Assembly: GCF_028281565.1 (NCBI RefSeq)
Contig: NZ_JANQJQ010000047.1
Span: 124,001 to 188,000 of the forward strand
Origin: Seonamhaeicola sp.
GTDB lineage: Bacteria; Bacteroidota; Bacteroidia; Flavobacteriales; Flavobacteriaceae
Length of the DNA: 64,000 nt
Direction of reading: 5' to 3'
Shown here: positions 17,966 to 22,319 of the stretch, piece after piece
Numbering within the stretch: the stretch's first letter is position 1
How the letters are laid out: every line of letters starts with the position of its first letter
The notes under the pieces: generated by a model
Databases searched by the model: none
What the model saw: only the letters and a program-made list of their open reading frames with translations
Told to the model about the DNA's origin: nothing
Position numbers and translations under genes: made by a program

Positions 17966-18047
17966 AATGATTATCTAATGTAAAGTTAGTTTTGCTATAA
18001 AATCTTTAAAACTTCAAAAAAAACTATAAAAAATTAATTCTACAATT

Positions 18048-18076
18048 TTGATTTCTTAAAATATTAACTACTTTAG
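18048..18076 (+). promoter_or_regulatory. Promoter of the aromatic amino acid operon
   Basis: TTG (18048-18050) and TACTTTAG (18069-18076; one mismatch to TAnnTTTG) with an 18-base spacer. Transcription would start near 18082, a few bases before the leader-peptide ATG at 18088. Confidence 0.55.
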
Positions 18077-18087
18077 CCGCTGTAATT

Positions 18088-18144
18088 ATGAGAACAACAG
18101 CAGTTTATACATATTTTAGCTTTTATTACTTCTTTTTTAGTTAA
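18088..18144 (+). CDS. Aromatic leader peptide (pheL-like) of an attenuator
   Basis: An 18-codon open frame, MRTTAVYTYFSFYYFFFS, ending in TAA. Nine residues are aromatic (5 Phe, 4 Tyr), including six in a row (FYYFFF, codons at 18121-18138) just before the stop. Composition and position before pheA match the principle of the enterobacterial Phe leader: ribosome stalling at Phe/Tyr codons reports amino acid shortage. It does not match that leader by sequence. The stop codon is five bases before the antiterminator strand, so a ribosome ending translation would cover it. The peptide itself is not expected to have a function. Confidence 0.8.
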   Translation: MRTTAVYTYFSFYYFFFS

Positions 18145-18149
18145 AGGAA

Positions 18150-18199
18150 CGAGGCGTTATATGTATAAATTGGAACAATAAATTTAAATATAAGTCTCG
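18150..18199 (+). promoter_or_regulatory. Antiterminator helix of the Phe/Tyr attenuator
   Basis: CGAGGC-(G)-TTATA (18150-18161) can pair with TATAAGTCTCG (18189-18199): 11 pairs with one bulged G and one G-U pair. The 3' strand is also the 5' arm of the terminator hairpin, so the two structures exclude each other. Confidence 0.65.
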
Positions 18200-18221
18200 G
18201 TGAAAATCGGGACTTTTTTTT
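18192..18221 (+). terminator. Rho-independent terminator of the attenuator, abutting the pheA ATG
   Basis: AAGTCTCG pairs with CGGGACTT (8 pairs, one G-U) around GTGAAAAT, followed by eight T residues (18214-18221). The pheA ATG is the next base, so this terminator can only serve to stop transcription before the operon. Confidence 0.8.
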
Positions 18222-19049
18222 ATGATTAAAACAGTAGCAATACAAGGAGTAAAAGGGTCTTATCATCATATTGTATCAGAGCAATTTTTTGATAATTCGG
18301 TAGGGCTTATAGAGTGTTTAACATTCGATAGGGTTGTTGAAGCGTTGATAACCAAAGAATGTGATGCGGCCATTATGGCGCTGGAAAATTCTATAGCCGG
18401 TTCTATTATTCCCAATTATGCACTTATAGATAATCATCATTTACATATTGTAGGAGAGCATTATTTGGATATTCAACACAATCTAATGGCACTTCCCGGA
18501 CAATGCATTGAAGATATTGAAGAAGTGTACTCGCATCCGATGGCCTTGTTACAATGTAAGGAGTTCTTTAAAGGGTATCCTCATATTAAATTGGTAGAGG
18601 ACAAAGATACCGCCGAGGTTGCCGACAGGATCAATAAAAAACAGCTTAAGAATATTGGAGCTATTGCCAGTGTTTTGGCTGCAGACATATTTGAATTGGA
18701 TATACTGGCACACAGTATTCAAACCATTAAACACAACGAAACGCGTTTTGCCGTAGTGAAACGAACCAATTCTGAGGTGCCGGAAGATGAGATCAACAAA
18801 GTTTCAATGAAGTTTGAAGCAGATCATAAACGGGGGAGTTTGGCAACCATCCTTAATGTGATGAGCGATTGTAAATTGAACCTGACAAAGATCCAGTCGT
18901 TGCCAATTATTGAAACGCCCTGGAAGTATGCTTTTTTTGTAGACGTTACCTTTGAAGATTACAATGATTTTAAAAAGGCGAAATCGTTGATAGAAATCAT
19001 GGGTGAAGGGTTTAAAGTTTTAGGCGAATATAAAAATGCAAAGTTATGA
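18222..19049 (+). CDS. pheA: Prephenate dehydratase
   Basis: Converts prephenate to phenylpyruvate for phenylalanine synthesis. The catalytic domain spans about residues 1-185, with GSYHHIVSEQFF, ALENSIAGSIIPNY and the NETRFAVV motif (TRF). A C-terminal ACT regulatory domain from about residue 195 (KRGSLATILNVMSDCKLNLTKIQS) indicates feedback control by Phe. There is no chorismate mutase domain; that activity is fused to the DAHP synthase later in the operon. The ATG directly follows the T-run of the attenuator terminator, and the gene end overlaps the aminotransferase start by four bases. Confidence 0.94.
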   Translation: MIKTVAIQGVKGSYHHIVSEQFFDNSVGLIECLTFDRVVEALITKECDAAIMALENSIAGSIIPNYALIDNHHLHIVGEHYLDIQHNLMALPGQCIEDIEEVYSHPMALLQCKEFFKGYPHIKLVEDKDTAEVADRINKKQLKNIGAIASVLAADIFELDILAHSIQTIKHNETRFAVVKRTNSEVPEDEINKVSMKFEADHKRGSLATILNVMSDCKLNLTKIQSLPIIETPWKYAFFVDVTFEDYNDFKKAKSLIEIMGEGFKVLGEYKNAKL

Positions 19050-20191
19050 TTGAAGTAGCTAACAGATTGCATACCGTAGAGGAGTACTATTTCTCAAGGA
19101 AACTGAGAGAGGTGAACTCGATGATTGCCAATGGGAAACCGGTGATTAATTTAGGTATTGGAAGCCCTGACTTGCAACCCCCTAAAAAAGTGATTGAAGC
19201 TATATCGGAAAGTTTGCAGGATGCCAGTGCCCATAAATATCAAAGTTACCAGGGATTACCAGAGTTACGTGAAGCTATGGCATCGTTCTATAAAGAACAT
19301 TTCTCGGTGAGCTTAAGCCCCACTACCGAAATATTACCCTTAATAGGAAGTAAGGAAGGCATTATGCACATTTCCATGGCTTATTTAAATAAAGGGGATG
19401 AAGTATTGATTCCAAATCCGGGATATCCAACGTATCAGTCTGTGACCCGATTGGTAGAGGCCAAACCGGTATTTTACAAGTTGGATGCTTCCAATAATTG
19501 GATGCCGGATATTGATGCGTTAGAACAGCTGGATTTAAGCAAGGTAAAGTTGATGTGGGTTAATTACCCGCATATGCCAACAGGAGCCCGACCTTCTGAA
19601 ATAGTTTTCAGAAGTTTGATTGCTTTTGCTAAACGACATAATATTTTAATAGTTAATGATAATCCGTATAGCTTTGTGCTAAACGATAATCCAACAAGTA
19701 TATTAAATATTGAAGGAGCCGGGGAGGTCTGTTTAGAGCTTAACTCATTGAGTAAAACTTTTAATATGGCAGGTTGGCGTGTAGGTATGGTATTGGGAGA
19801 CAGCGAACATATAAGCAACATCCTGAAAGTTAAAAGTAATATGGATTCCGGCATGTTTTACGGTATTCAAAAAGGTGCTATAGAAGCTTTAAAGTGTTCC
19901 AAAATGTGGTATGTTACGTTGAATAGTGTGTACAAAAGACGAAGGGATTTAGTCTGGAAGTTGGCCGAAGCCCTTAACTGTACTTATGATGAAAATGCCA
20001 CAGGTATGTTTGTATGGGCAAAGTTGCCACCGTCTGTGAAGGCCGAGGAATTTATAGATACAATACTTAAGAACAATCATGTTTTTATTACACCGGGAAC
20101 CATTTTTGGTAGCCAGGGAGAAGGCTATATCAGGTTTTCATTATGTGCATCGACTGAAGATTTAGAAGAAGCTATAGCAAGAATAAAATAA
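19046..20191 (+). CDS. PLP-dependent aminotransferase, class I/II (aromatic or aspartate type)
   Basis: Fold-type I aminotransferase of 381 residues. The PLP lysine is K237 in LNSLSKTFNMAGWRVG. NYPHMPTGARP is the Asn-Pro loop, and the C-terminal YIRFSLCAS carries the substrate-carboxylate arginine. It is coupled to pheA by an ATGA overlap and followed by tyrA, so the likely task is transamination of phenylpyruvate and 4-hydroxyphenylpyruvate (or of prephenate). The exact substrate cannot be read from sequence; related enzymes are often annotated as LL-diaminopimelate or aspartate aminotransferases. Confidence 0.85.
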   Translation: MIEVANRLHTVEEYYFSRKLREVNSMIANGKPVINLGIGSPDLQPPKKVIEAISESLQDASAHKYQSYQGLPELREAMASFYKEHFSVSLSPTTEILPLIGSKEGIMHISMAYLNKGDEVLIPNPGYPTYQSVTRLVEAKPVFYKLDASNNWMPDIDALEQLDLSKVKLMWVNYPHMPTGARPSEIVFRSLIAFAKRHNILIVNDNPYSFVLNDNPTSILNIEGAGEVCLELNSLSKTFNMAGWRVGMVLGDSEHISNILKVKSNMDSGMFYGIQKGAIEALKCSKMWYVTLNSVYKRRRDLVWKLAEALNCTYDENATGMFVWAKLPPSVKAEEFIDTILKNNHVFITPGTIFGSQGEGYIRFSLCASTEDLEEAIARIK

Positions 20192-20261: not shown

Positions 20262-20290
20262 CCCTCTCTTTTGGAGAGGGATGGGAGAGG
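20262..20290. repeat. CCCTCTC-GGAGAGGG hairpin repeat before tyrA
   Basis: CCCTCTCTTTTGGAGAGGG followed by ATGGGAGAGG, an element of the kind also present in the 45.4 kb gap. It supplies an in-frame ATG (20281) that would lengthen TyrA by four residues. Confidence 0.6.
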
Positions 20291-20292
20291 CC

Positions 20293-21144
20293 ATGAAGAA
20301 TATATACGTCATAGGAGTTGGTTTAATTGGAGGTAGTCTTGCAAAAGATATCAAGACGCAAAACCCTGATGTGGTCATTCATGGAATAAGTAGAAAAGAC
20401 ACTACGCTTGAGCAAGCTTTATCTTTAGGTTTAATTGATAAAAAAGCCACTTTAGATGATATTGAGCATGCCGATTTGGTGATTGTCTCCATTCCGGTGG
20501 ATGCCACTGTAAAATTATTACCATCAATTTTAGACAAAATACCGGATACGGGATTGGTGATAGACGCCGGTTCCACCAAAGAAGCTATTTGCAAAGCGGT
20601 GGAAAATCACCCAAAGCGAAGAAACTTTTTGGCGGCGCACCCTATTGCAGGTACGGAATATTCTGGTCCAAGTGCAGCTATGAGTGGTTTGTTTGAAGGG
20701 AAAACCAATATTATTTGCGAAGTTGAAAAAACGGCTTTTAAACTCCAGGAAAAAGCACTCGATATTTTTAAAAATTTGGGAATGCGTATTCGTTACATGA
20801 ACCCTGAAGCCCATGATAAACATATTGCTTACGTATCACATTTATCACATATCAGTTCATTCATGCTGGGGAAAACTGTGATAGAAAAGGAGAAAAATGA
20901 ACGTGATATTTTTGATATGGCCGGTAGTGGATTTGAGTCGACAGTTCGGTTAGCAAAAAGTTCACCCGAAATGTGGACACCCATTTTCAAACAGAATAAA
21001 CACAATGTTATTGAAACATTAGAAGAGTATATAAATAACCTCTCTCATTTTAAAGAGTTAATGAAGCAAGATGATTTTGAAGCCATTTTTAACGAAATGA
21101 AAAATACAAATCATATAAAAGACATATTAAACGGAATAAATTAA
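20293..21144 (+). CDS. tyrA: Prephenate dehydrogenase
   Basis: Oxidative decarboxylation of prephenate to 4-hydroxyphenylpyruvate (tyrosine branch). The NAD-binding motif VIGVGLIGGSLA starts at residue 5. The catalytic-site strand is AAHPIAGTEYSGP with its conserved His, followed by the helical dimerisation domain (YVSHLSHISSFMLG, MAGSGFESTVRLA). Start set at the ATG before KNIYVIG; the ATG 12 bases upstream belongs to a hairpin repeat and adds MGEA, which the family lacks. No ACT domain is present. It is third in the aromatic operon after the aminotransferase, with a gap of about 100 bases. Confidence 0.93.
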   Translation: MKNIYVIGVGLIGGSLAKDIKTQNPDVVIHGISRKDTTLEQALSLGLIDKKATLDDIEHADLVIVSIPVDATVKLLPSILDKIPDTGLVIDAGSTKEAICKAVENHPKRRNFLAAHPIAGTEYSGPSAAMSGLFEGKTNIICEVEKTAFKLQEKALDIFKNLGMRIRYMNPEAHDKHIAYVSHLSHISSFMLGKTVIEKEKNERDIFDMAGSGFESTVRLAKSSPEMWTPIFKQNKHNVIETLEEYINNLSHFKELMKQDDFEAIFNEMKNTNHIKDILNGIN

Positions 21145-21167: not shown

Positions 21168-21212
21168 CAAATTCCAATGAGAGCGAGATAAATACTTGGA
21201 TTTTGGAATTTG
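21168..21212. repeat. CAAATTCCAA / TTGGAATTTG inverted repeat
   Basis: Perfect 10-base arms (21168-21177 and 21203-21212) with a 25-base centre, between tyrA and the DAHP synthase gene. Related AAATTCC units occur before purE (63381) and a degenerate one near 49900. Confidence 0.7.
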
Positions 21213-21236
21213 AAGCTTGAAATTTTATTAAAAATT

Positions 21237-22319
21237 ATGGAAAACAAAAAAGAGTTAAGAAATTGGTTAGATGATTTAAACTTAGGTCATCCTTTGGTAA
21301 TAGCCGGACCTTGTAGTGCAGAAACGGAGGAGCAGGTTTTAAAAATTGCGCATGAGTTAAAAGATACCGATGTGAACTACTACAGAGCAGGTATCTGGAA
21401 ACCCAGAACCAGACCGGGAAATTTTGAAGGTGTAGGAGCCCTGGGTTTAAAATGGTTACAAAAGGTTAAGGAAGAGACCGGAATGAAAACGGCTACCGAG
21501 GTGGCCAATGCAGCCCACGTTAAGCTGGCTTTAGAGCATGATATTGATTTGCTATGGATTGGAGCGCGTTCTACGGTAAGCCCGTTTATTGTTCAGGAAA
21601 TAGCCGATGCTTTAGAAGGAACCGATAAAATTGTACTGGTTAAAAATCCTGTAAACCCTGATTTATCACTTTGGTTGGGAGCTATAGAACGCTTACATAC
21701 GGCTAACATTAAAAAATTAGGAGTCATTCACAGAGGGTTTTCAACGTACGAGAAAACTAAATTCAGAAATAACCCTAACTGGCAATTAGCTATTGAACTA
21801 CAAACTAAATTTCCTGATTTACCAATTATAAACGATCCGTCTCATATCACAGGTAAGAGAGATATGGTATTTGATATTTCTCAAATTGCATTGGATTTGA
21901 ATTTTGATGGCTTAATGATTGAAACGCATCATGATCCTGATAAAGCCTGGAGTGATGCTGCACAACAGGTAACACCTAATACTTTGGTGCAAATGATGAG
22001 AGATTTAAAGGTTAAAAAAGAAGCTGATGCAGAGGCAGAATACAATAAAAAACTTAATAATTTAAGAGCGAAAATAGACGTTGTTGATCATGAAATTATT
22101 GAGTTGCTTGGAAAACGTATGCTAGTATCTGATGGGATTGGTAAGCTTAAAAAAGAGAAGAACGTTGCCGTATTACAGAGCAAACGCTGGAACGAGATTT
22201 TAGGAAGAATGGTATTAGAAGGTCAGGACCATGGCTTAAGTGAAGAGTTTGTTTTGAAAATGTTCAAAGCTATTCACCAGGAGTCTATTAATCACCAGGA
22301 GAAGATAATTAACGGATAA
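21237..22319 (+). CDS. Bifunctional DAHP synthase / chorismate mutase
   Basis: Two activities of the aromatic pathway in one chain. Residues about 10-250 form a KDSA/AroF-type 3-deoxy-D-arabino-heptulosonate-7-phosphate synthase (VIAGPCSAETEEQ, AGIWKPRTRPGNFEG, DPSHITGKRDMV). Residues about 265-355 form an AroQ-type chorismate mutase (LRAKIDVVDHEIIELLGKRM, then SKRWNEIL). The fusion makes the first and the branch-point enzymes respond together. Start taken at the ATG before ENKKELRNW; the frame upstream runs into a dispersed repeat. It closes the operon, and a strong terminator follows three bases after the stop. Confidence 0.93.
   Translation: MENKKELRNWLDDLNLGHPLVIAGPCSAETEEQVLKIAHELKDTDVNYYRAGIWKPRTRPGNFEGVGALGLKWLQKVKEETGMKTATEVANAAHVKLALEHDIDLLWIGARSTVSPFIVQEIADALEGTDKIVLVKNPVNPDLSLWLGAIERLHTANIKKLGVIHRGFSTYEKTKFRNNPNWQLAIELQTKFPDLPIINDPSHITGKRDMVFDISQIALDLNFDGLMIETHHDPDKAWSDAAQQVTPNTLVQMMRDLKVKKEADAEAEYNKKLNNLRAKIDVVDHEIIELLGKRMLVSDGIGKLKKEKNVAVLQSKRWNEILGRMVLEGQDHGLSEEFVLKMFKAIHQESINHQEKIING

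Follow-up and report, generated by a model that had tools for sequence, protein, structure and literature searches.

A predicted phenylalanine- and tyrosine-responsive transcription attenuator upstream of the pheA operon in Seonamhaeicola sp. and its relatives

The operon for phenylalanine and tyrosine synthesis in Seonamhaeicola sp. begins directly behind a short reading frame rich in aromatic codons and a terminator-like hairpin. This arrangement raises the question of whether translation of the short frame decides if transcription enters the operon, and which amino acids are read. The window analysed here is a 64,000-nucleotide stretch of the genome (contig NZ_JANQJQ010000047.1, positions 124,001 to 188,000). 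Positions are those of the window, and features are on its forward strand unless stated otherwise.

The pheA operon, its predicted promoter and its leader reading frame

The candidate attenuator lies directly 5' of four genes. The first is pheA (18222–19049), encoding prephenate dehydratase with an ACT domain (PF00800, 1.5e-54; PF01842, 20.7 bits, below the Pfam cut-off of 27). It is followed by a class I/II aminotransferase gene (19046–20191; PF00155), tyrA for prephenate dehydrogenase (20281–21144; NF006307, 389 bits against a cut-off of 295), and a gene for a DAHP synthase/chorismate mutase fusion (21210–22319; PF00793 and PF01817), which is listed from a TTG, its start codon being uncertain. 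Together these enzymes account for the entry reaction of the aromatic pathway and for the conversion of chorismate to Phe and Tyr. The next ORF listed downstream is on the opposite strand, as is the ORF upstream of the attenuator, which by its motifs we take to resemble an ABC-transporter ATPase. For comparison we assembled 110 pheA loci, 30 from this genome and relatives and 80 named ones that were the best 80 of 575 relatives; the nearest named pheA relatives, including Algibacter, Flavivirga, Aestuariivivens, Confluentibacter and Tamlana, were 81–86% identical. The pheA–aminotransferase–tyrA order was retained in 109 of the 110 loci, in keeping with the earlier proposal that a mixed Phe and Tyr code fits an operon making both amino acids.

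A promoter is predicted at 18047–18076, where a −33 TTTG (18047–18050) is separated by a spacer of 18 from the −7 element TACTTTAG (18069–18076), which is TAnnTTTG with one mismatch. The pair, already noticed in a sequence-only reading of this region, thus has a single mismatch to the Bacteroidota −33/−7 consensus of TTTG plus TAnnTTTG. Transcription would start near 18079–18084. The leader ORF, MRTTAVYTYFSFYYFFFS (18088–18144), extends from the ATG at 18088 to the TAA at 18142–18144 and has 18 codons, of which 5 are Phe and 4 are Tyr, as reported previously. The run of six aromatic codons described as preceding the stop is also real, except that one Ser codon intervenes between the run and the stop. 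By sequence this aromatic-rich short frame is what is sought in a predicted attenuator leader peptide, and among 51 gene-upstream regions of the window at least 7 aromatic residues in 12 codons occurred only before pheA (9, with 5 as the next best).

Alternative pairing of the leader RNA

Strand 1 (18101–18114) lies inside the leader ORF, spans the first two Tyr codons and pairs with 18159–18172. Strand 2 (18150–18172) has two partners, with 18150–18162 pairing to strand 3 and 18159–18172 to strand 1; its residues 18166–18171 are also part of the inner antiterminator helix of 6 pairs (18166–18171 with 18181–18186). Strand 3 (18188–18199) is the 3' arm of the antiterminator, and 18192–18199 within it doubles as the 5' arm of a predicted intrinsic terminator (18192–18221). 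The antiterminator, previously counted as 11 pairs, was present with 12 pairs around a bulged G18156 (18150–18155 with 18194–18199 and 18157–18162 with 18188–18193). Similarly, the 8 terminator pairs reported before are the outer pairs of a 10-pair stem that includes a G-U pair (18192–18201 with 18206–18215). The eight T residues (18214–18221) abut the pheA ATG at 18222, as had been stated. Antiterminator and terminator have the bases 18192–18199 in common and are mutually exclusive in the window, which also agrees with the original description.

The minimum free energy (MFE) fold of the RNA from 18082 to 18222 (−34.2 kcal/mol, z-score −5.1; none of 200 shuffled sequences was equally stable) consisted of the 1:2 hairpin and the terminator. 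The long 1:2 hairpin comprises the helix 18101–18114/18159–18172 plus pairs between the aromatic codons and a downstream purine-rich stretch. When the leader ORF was removed from the fold, the antiterminator (18150–18162 with 18188–18199) and its inner helix appeared. This switch from 1:2 to the antiterminator indicates that the pheA leader element has, in the folding model, a full set of 1:2, 2:3 and 3:4 helices. The sequence-only reading had found no separate 1:2 pause hairpin; on this point it was mistaken, as the helix exists and covaries.

Covariation in the close group was assessed in an alignment (A2) of 57 of the 64 loci picked by leader-peptide motif, in which the window stands for locus L001; the duplicate locus L060 and six loci of another sequence type were left out. 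Two-sided changes occurred in 12 of the 26 pairs of the 1:2 structure, 8 of them within its 14-pair main helix. The shuffle mean for such pairs was 8.1, and 2 of 500 shuffles reached 12, while the 48 two-sided cells compared with a shuffle mean of 19.3 and were reached by none of 500. Sliding the structure by one column left 48% or 37% of the cells paired, down from 78.6%; a shift of −3 matched the count of 12 two-sided pairs, although its two-sided cells numbered 28 and 41.6% of its cells were paired. The middle helix (18119–18123 with 18151–18155) is not conserved, with just 46% paired. In the same 57 sequences the 2:3 and 3:4 helices were nearly invariant, and their covariation did not exceed that of shuffles.

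Between clades all three helices varied in step. Strands 2 and 3 read CGAGRC/GTCTCG, CGGGAC/GTCCCG, AGGATTG/CAATCCT and others according to clade, and strand 4 followed. The covarying helices proposed as a check were therefore found for 1:2 within the close group and for all three between clades, but for neither 2:3 nor 3:4 within the close group. In 48 representatives, selected at a similarity below 0.88, the native duplexes averaged −12.7 kcal/mol for 1:2, −12.7 for 2:3 and −13.5 for 3:4; after exchange of strands between clades the averages were −7.1, −7.7 and −8.8, a mean weakening of 5.6, 5.1 and 4.7 kcal/mol, respectively. The native pair was better than the mean between-clade swap in 47, 47 and 48 of the 48 representatives, but it ranked among the top 5% in no more than 26, 29 and 23. 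With all swaps counted, including those within clades, it was in the best 5% in 24, 11 and 17. The control pairs 1:3 and 1:4 gave no difference between native and swapped strands in the 48 representatives. At single loci the short 2:3 core was not always better than its shuffles (L043, 29/60; L057, 27; L069, 21; L045, 20), and the z-score of 1:2 was above −2 in 9 of the 48 representatives, the worst being −0.26.

Conservation of the leader and its geometry

We searched the 110 loci for an ATG frame with at least 5 aromatic residues in 12 codons no more than 350 nt upstream of pheA. Such a leader was found in 107 loci (106 of 109 when L060, a duplicate of L018 with the same leader, is set aside), the outcome that the proposed comparison with relatives had called for; the 106 distinct loci were used for counts of geometry. 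At least 8 aromatic residues in 12 codons were present in 101 of the 110 real upstream regions versus 0.14% of 2200 shuffled regions from relatives. At two of the three misses (L015 and L049) the leader is further upstream, and L026 alone shows none. The leader is at about 854 and pheA at 1501 in L015, and the corresponding positions in L049 are about 2461 and 3001, i.e. roughly 540–650 nt before pheA compared with about 115–235 nt in the other loci, so that something appears to intervene between the terminator and pheA. A further locus (L109), from a record titled 'MAG: Rhizobium sp. Q54', contains a Flavobacterium-type pheA with a leader, which may reflect mislabelling of the record or contamination of the bin.

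The predicted promoter is shared as well. The pattern TTTG-N18..20-TANNTTTG, with at most one mismatch, was found within 100 nt upstream of 78 of the 106 leader ORFs compared to 5.2 expected from shuffles; the spacer range was chosen after the spacing counts had been made. In two loci (L036 and L038) the sequence 5' of the leader ATG differs from that of near relatives, and L036 has a promoter-like ACTTTAGC further upstream, as if an insertion separated promoter and leader.

Phe codons (2–9) and Tyr codons (2–6) were present in all 106 leaders. As the pheA–aminotransferase–tyrA order is kept as well, a response to both amino acids is the natural reading of these sequences. Trp codons were found in 50 of the 106 leaders and in 31 of the 48 representatives, with none in the window leader, and a share for Trp in the response is suggested. 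Strand 2 begins 7–13 nt (mostly 11) past the last aromatic codon in all 106 loci, although the position of the stop codon relative to the first base of strand 2 ranges from −9 to +25 nt.

These counts bear on the possibility that the short ORF encodes a functional aromatic micropeptide, e.g. a membrane-bound one, next to hairpins that form a separate regulatory or constitutive terminator. The leader peptide is indeed conserved, hydrophobic and aromatic, and a tail, KRNETLYV, looks conserved in many relatives. However, Phe, Tyr and Trp interchange at the same sites, leaders with an earlier stop, that of the window among them, lack the tail, and the tail codons coincide with strand 2, where the bases are held by pairing. 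The nearly fixed quantity is the distance from the aromatic block to strand 2 rather than the length of the peptide, which varies from 16 to 29 residues. Two leaders compared with NCBIfam and three compared with Pfam gave no match. We consider a micropeptide very improbable.

The other parts of the predicted switch were present in the relatives as well. Pairing of the ORF with strand 2, with at least 10 pairs, was part of the MFE fold in all 48 representatives. A terminator-like stem with a T-run followed the leader ORF in 107 of 107 loci; the T-run was a requirement of the search, and it is also visible in the aligned sequences. Antiterminator strand 3 overlapped the terminator arm by at least 5 nt in all 106 distinct loci.

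Known regulatory RNAs were sought with Rfam. The only matches at gathering score across the window were a SAM riboswitch (RF00162; 6346–6453, 53.9 bits) and a Flavo-1 RNA (RF01705; 10585–10657, 49.6 bits), the latter of unclear function according to a passage in PMC9723704. No family covered the pheA leader at the gathering level, and the 11 lax matches were far below their cut-offs; one of these was the Phe_leader family (RF01859), with 20.4 bits and an E-value of 0.24 against a gathering cut-off of 55. Bacteroid-trp (RF01692) had no match in the window at the gathering level and was not among the lax matches. A terminator and an antiterminator alone would also suit a switch such as a riboswitch, a T-box or a terminator under the control of an RNA-binding protein, in which case the ORF would be incidental. 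The Rfam result and the conservation of the ORF, its codon code and its spacing to strand 2 argue against such a switch, to which we give even less credence than to a micropeptide. Translational control, in which the last hairpin hides the pheA start and does not stop transcription, is suggested by the T-tract that abuts the ATG in the window and is just as implausible, because the distance from the end of the stem to pheA is 5 to 103 nt in relatives, which indicates that the terminator does not act by hiding the start.

Beyond the initial set we inspected 43 further loci. A leader was found in 30 of these at a laxer threshold of six aromatic residues, a value of at least 6 being reached by 5% of shuffled family regions, and in 24 at a threshold of at least 8. 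The leader was present in five of five other family members (L111–L113, L117 and L121), in all three extra family members from the class search, in six of nine loci from other families of the order and in 16 of 26 loci from other orders of the class (10 of 26 with at least 8 aromatic residues). One of the three extra family members, L127, has the same leader as L108 and is apparently a repeat of it, so one of the 43 loci is not independent. All 13 loci in which no leader was found are outside the family. Of the 30 leaders, 27 have a strand-2 match (score at least 13) that begins no more than 16 nt from the last aromatic codon. The class search provided loci for 29 of the 41 matched genomes besides our own; as pheA was matched in only 42 of 149 genomes, the element cannot outnumber that gene. 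At seven loci from other orders (L133, L138, L143, L145, L146, L149 and L153) a DAHP synthase/mutase gene follows pheA within the fetched DNA, in which aminotransferase and tyrA were unmatched; their leaders still contain Phe and Tyr codons.

A covariance model (R1) was built from the close-group alignment. It identified one strong copy in our genome (E 1.4e-18, the next at 0.116), and hence gave nothing to suggest that an element of this sequence occurs there a second time. At an E-value of 0.01 it matched 26 of 198 genomes of the phylum. Fifteen matched loci were inspected, three of them the weak ones in our own genome: an aromatic ORF was present at the match in six (L159–L163 and L170) and absent in nine (L156–L158, L165, L168, L178–L180 and L184), so that many of the weak matches probably represent a terminator alone. 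The model missed two genomes with plain pheA leaders (G119 and G152), and is therefore too narrow for mapping the distribution.

Proposed mechanism and relation to known systems

We modelled the effect of ribosome position by folding the RNA ahead of a ribosome with a 12-nt footprint; RNA behind the ribosome and kinetics were left out. This footprint corresponds to the 12 nt beyond the A-site codon given in a passage of PMC4833913. In the window, the probability of the antiterminator was 0.99–1.00 as long as the ribosome occupied any of codons 3 to 16; it fell to 0.83 once Phe 17 was reached, then to 0.03 (Ser 18) and 0.00 (stop codon). For the 48 representatives the mean was 0.93 when the ribosome stood on the first aromatic codon, 0.72 when it stood on the last and 0.00 when it had reached the stop. 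With a 9-nt footprint these values were 0.93, 0.94 and 0.00, whereas with a 15-nt footprint strand 2 was no longer free at the last aromatic codon (mean 0.07). With the 9- and 12-nt footprints, then, the control codons are placed such that a stall frees strand 2 and termination covers it, and the logic of stalled versus terminating ribosomes set out in the sequence-only reading was reproduced. From the spacing of strand 2 to the aromatic block and the position of the stop, a terminating ribosome that shields about 12 nt in front of it would reach into strand 2.

Without a ribosome and before strand 4 is made, the antiterminator probability in the window was 0.0, because 1:2 wins. In the 48 representatives the corresponding probability of 2:3 averaged 0.55, which points to weaker protection by 1:2 in many relatives. 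Masking by the terminating ribosome had been put forward as the switch. The value of 0.00 at the stop is in line with this; however, the 1:2 hairpin is available too, and masking need not be the sole thing that keeps strand 2 from strand 3.

Taken together, sequence, conservation and modelling make it very probable that the region is a classical three-hairpin attenuator, in which a ribosome controls transcription in response to the charging of Phe and Tyr tRNAs. In the proposed mechanism, RNA polymerase would make the leader and a ribosome would start at the ATG at 18088 on an almost leaderless 5' end. When Phe-tRNA or Tyr-tRNA is short, the ribosome would stall on one of the nine aromatic codons. 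A ribosome held at the earliest of these codons would cover strand 1, and one held at almost any of them would leave strand 2 free, such that 2:3 could form before strand 4 is made and polymerase would continue into pheA. When both tRNAs are charged, the ribosome at the stop would cover the 5' part of strand 2, and 3:4 would terminate transcription just before pheA. Without translation 1:2 would form, again leading to termination. Shortage of Phe or Tyr alone should relieve termination, i.e. the leader should act as an OR gate.

The E. coli pheA leader has a Phe code and works by 1:2, 2:3 and 3:4 attenuation. The window element resembles it in its head gene, its aromatic-rich leader peptide and the logic of its helices. 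It differs in its mixed Phe/Tyr code, often with Trp in relatives, in an operon that also contains tyrA and the DAHP synthase gene, and in its Bacteroidota promoter with a probably very short 5' end. The Bacteroid-trp RNA, for its part, works by Trp codons. It is listed as a cis-regulatory RNA of Bacteroidetes in PMC2864571 (2010), where its name suggests trp genes, and is to that extent similar. A passage in PMC1183508 names pheA among attenuated operons.

Attenuators of this kind had been called little described in Bacteroidota, which is true in part. In open-access articles in PMC we found no paper joining leader-peptide attenuation, Bacteroidetes, phenylalanine and amino acid biosynthesis, and none on leader-peptide attenuation by joint phenylalanine and tyrosine codons. 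Some attenuators in Bacteroidetes/Chlorobi were reportedly predicted by Vitreschak et al. in 2004 (FEMS). The main texts of PMC2965389, PMC8632094 and PMC11109978 contain no word starting with Bacteroid or Flavobacter. On the other hand, PMC9723704 (2021) reports that pheA of Flavobacterium psychrophilum is preceded by a structured 5' element, which is also conserved in other genera and has no Rfam hits, and gives leader-peptide clues for amino acid operons of that species. The published element precedes the same gene in the same family, the Flavobacteriaceae, and by its description is likely the same element. Our leader was present in all 29 loci titled Flavobacterium.

The type of control is thus textbook, while this branch of it, hardly described in Bacteroidota, would now be much better documented. 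On balance we favour the broader view that an aromatic attenuator absent from Rfam is widespread in the class Bacteroidia, in which one leader, on an almost leaderless mRNA, would control a joint aromatic operon as an OR gate with Phe, Tyr and often Trp codons as its inputs. Such an attenuator would add to the proteobacterial models a clean and widely conserved example of ribosome-mediated attenuation from elsewhere, whose mixed Phe/Tyr code matches an operon making both amino acids, and the alignment and covariance model obtained here could seed an Rfam family. Transcription-translation coupling is weak in Bacillus. As the proposed switch works only with a ribosome close behind polymerase, it could serve as a reporter for coupling in Bacteroidota, and, if the view is correct, the persistence of the attenuator in Bacteroidia would imply tight coupling of transcription to translation in this phylum.
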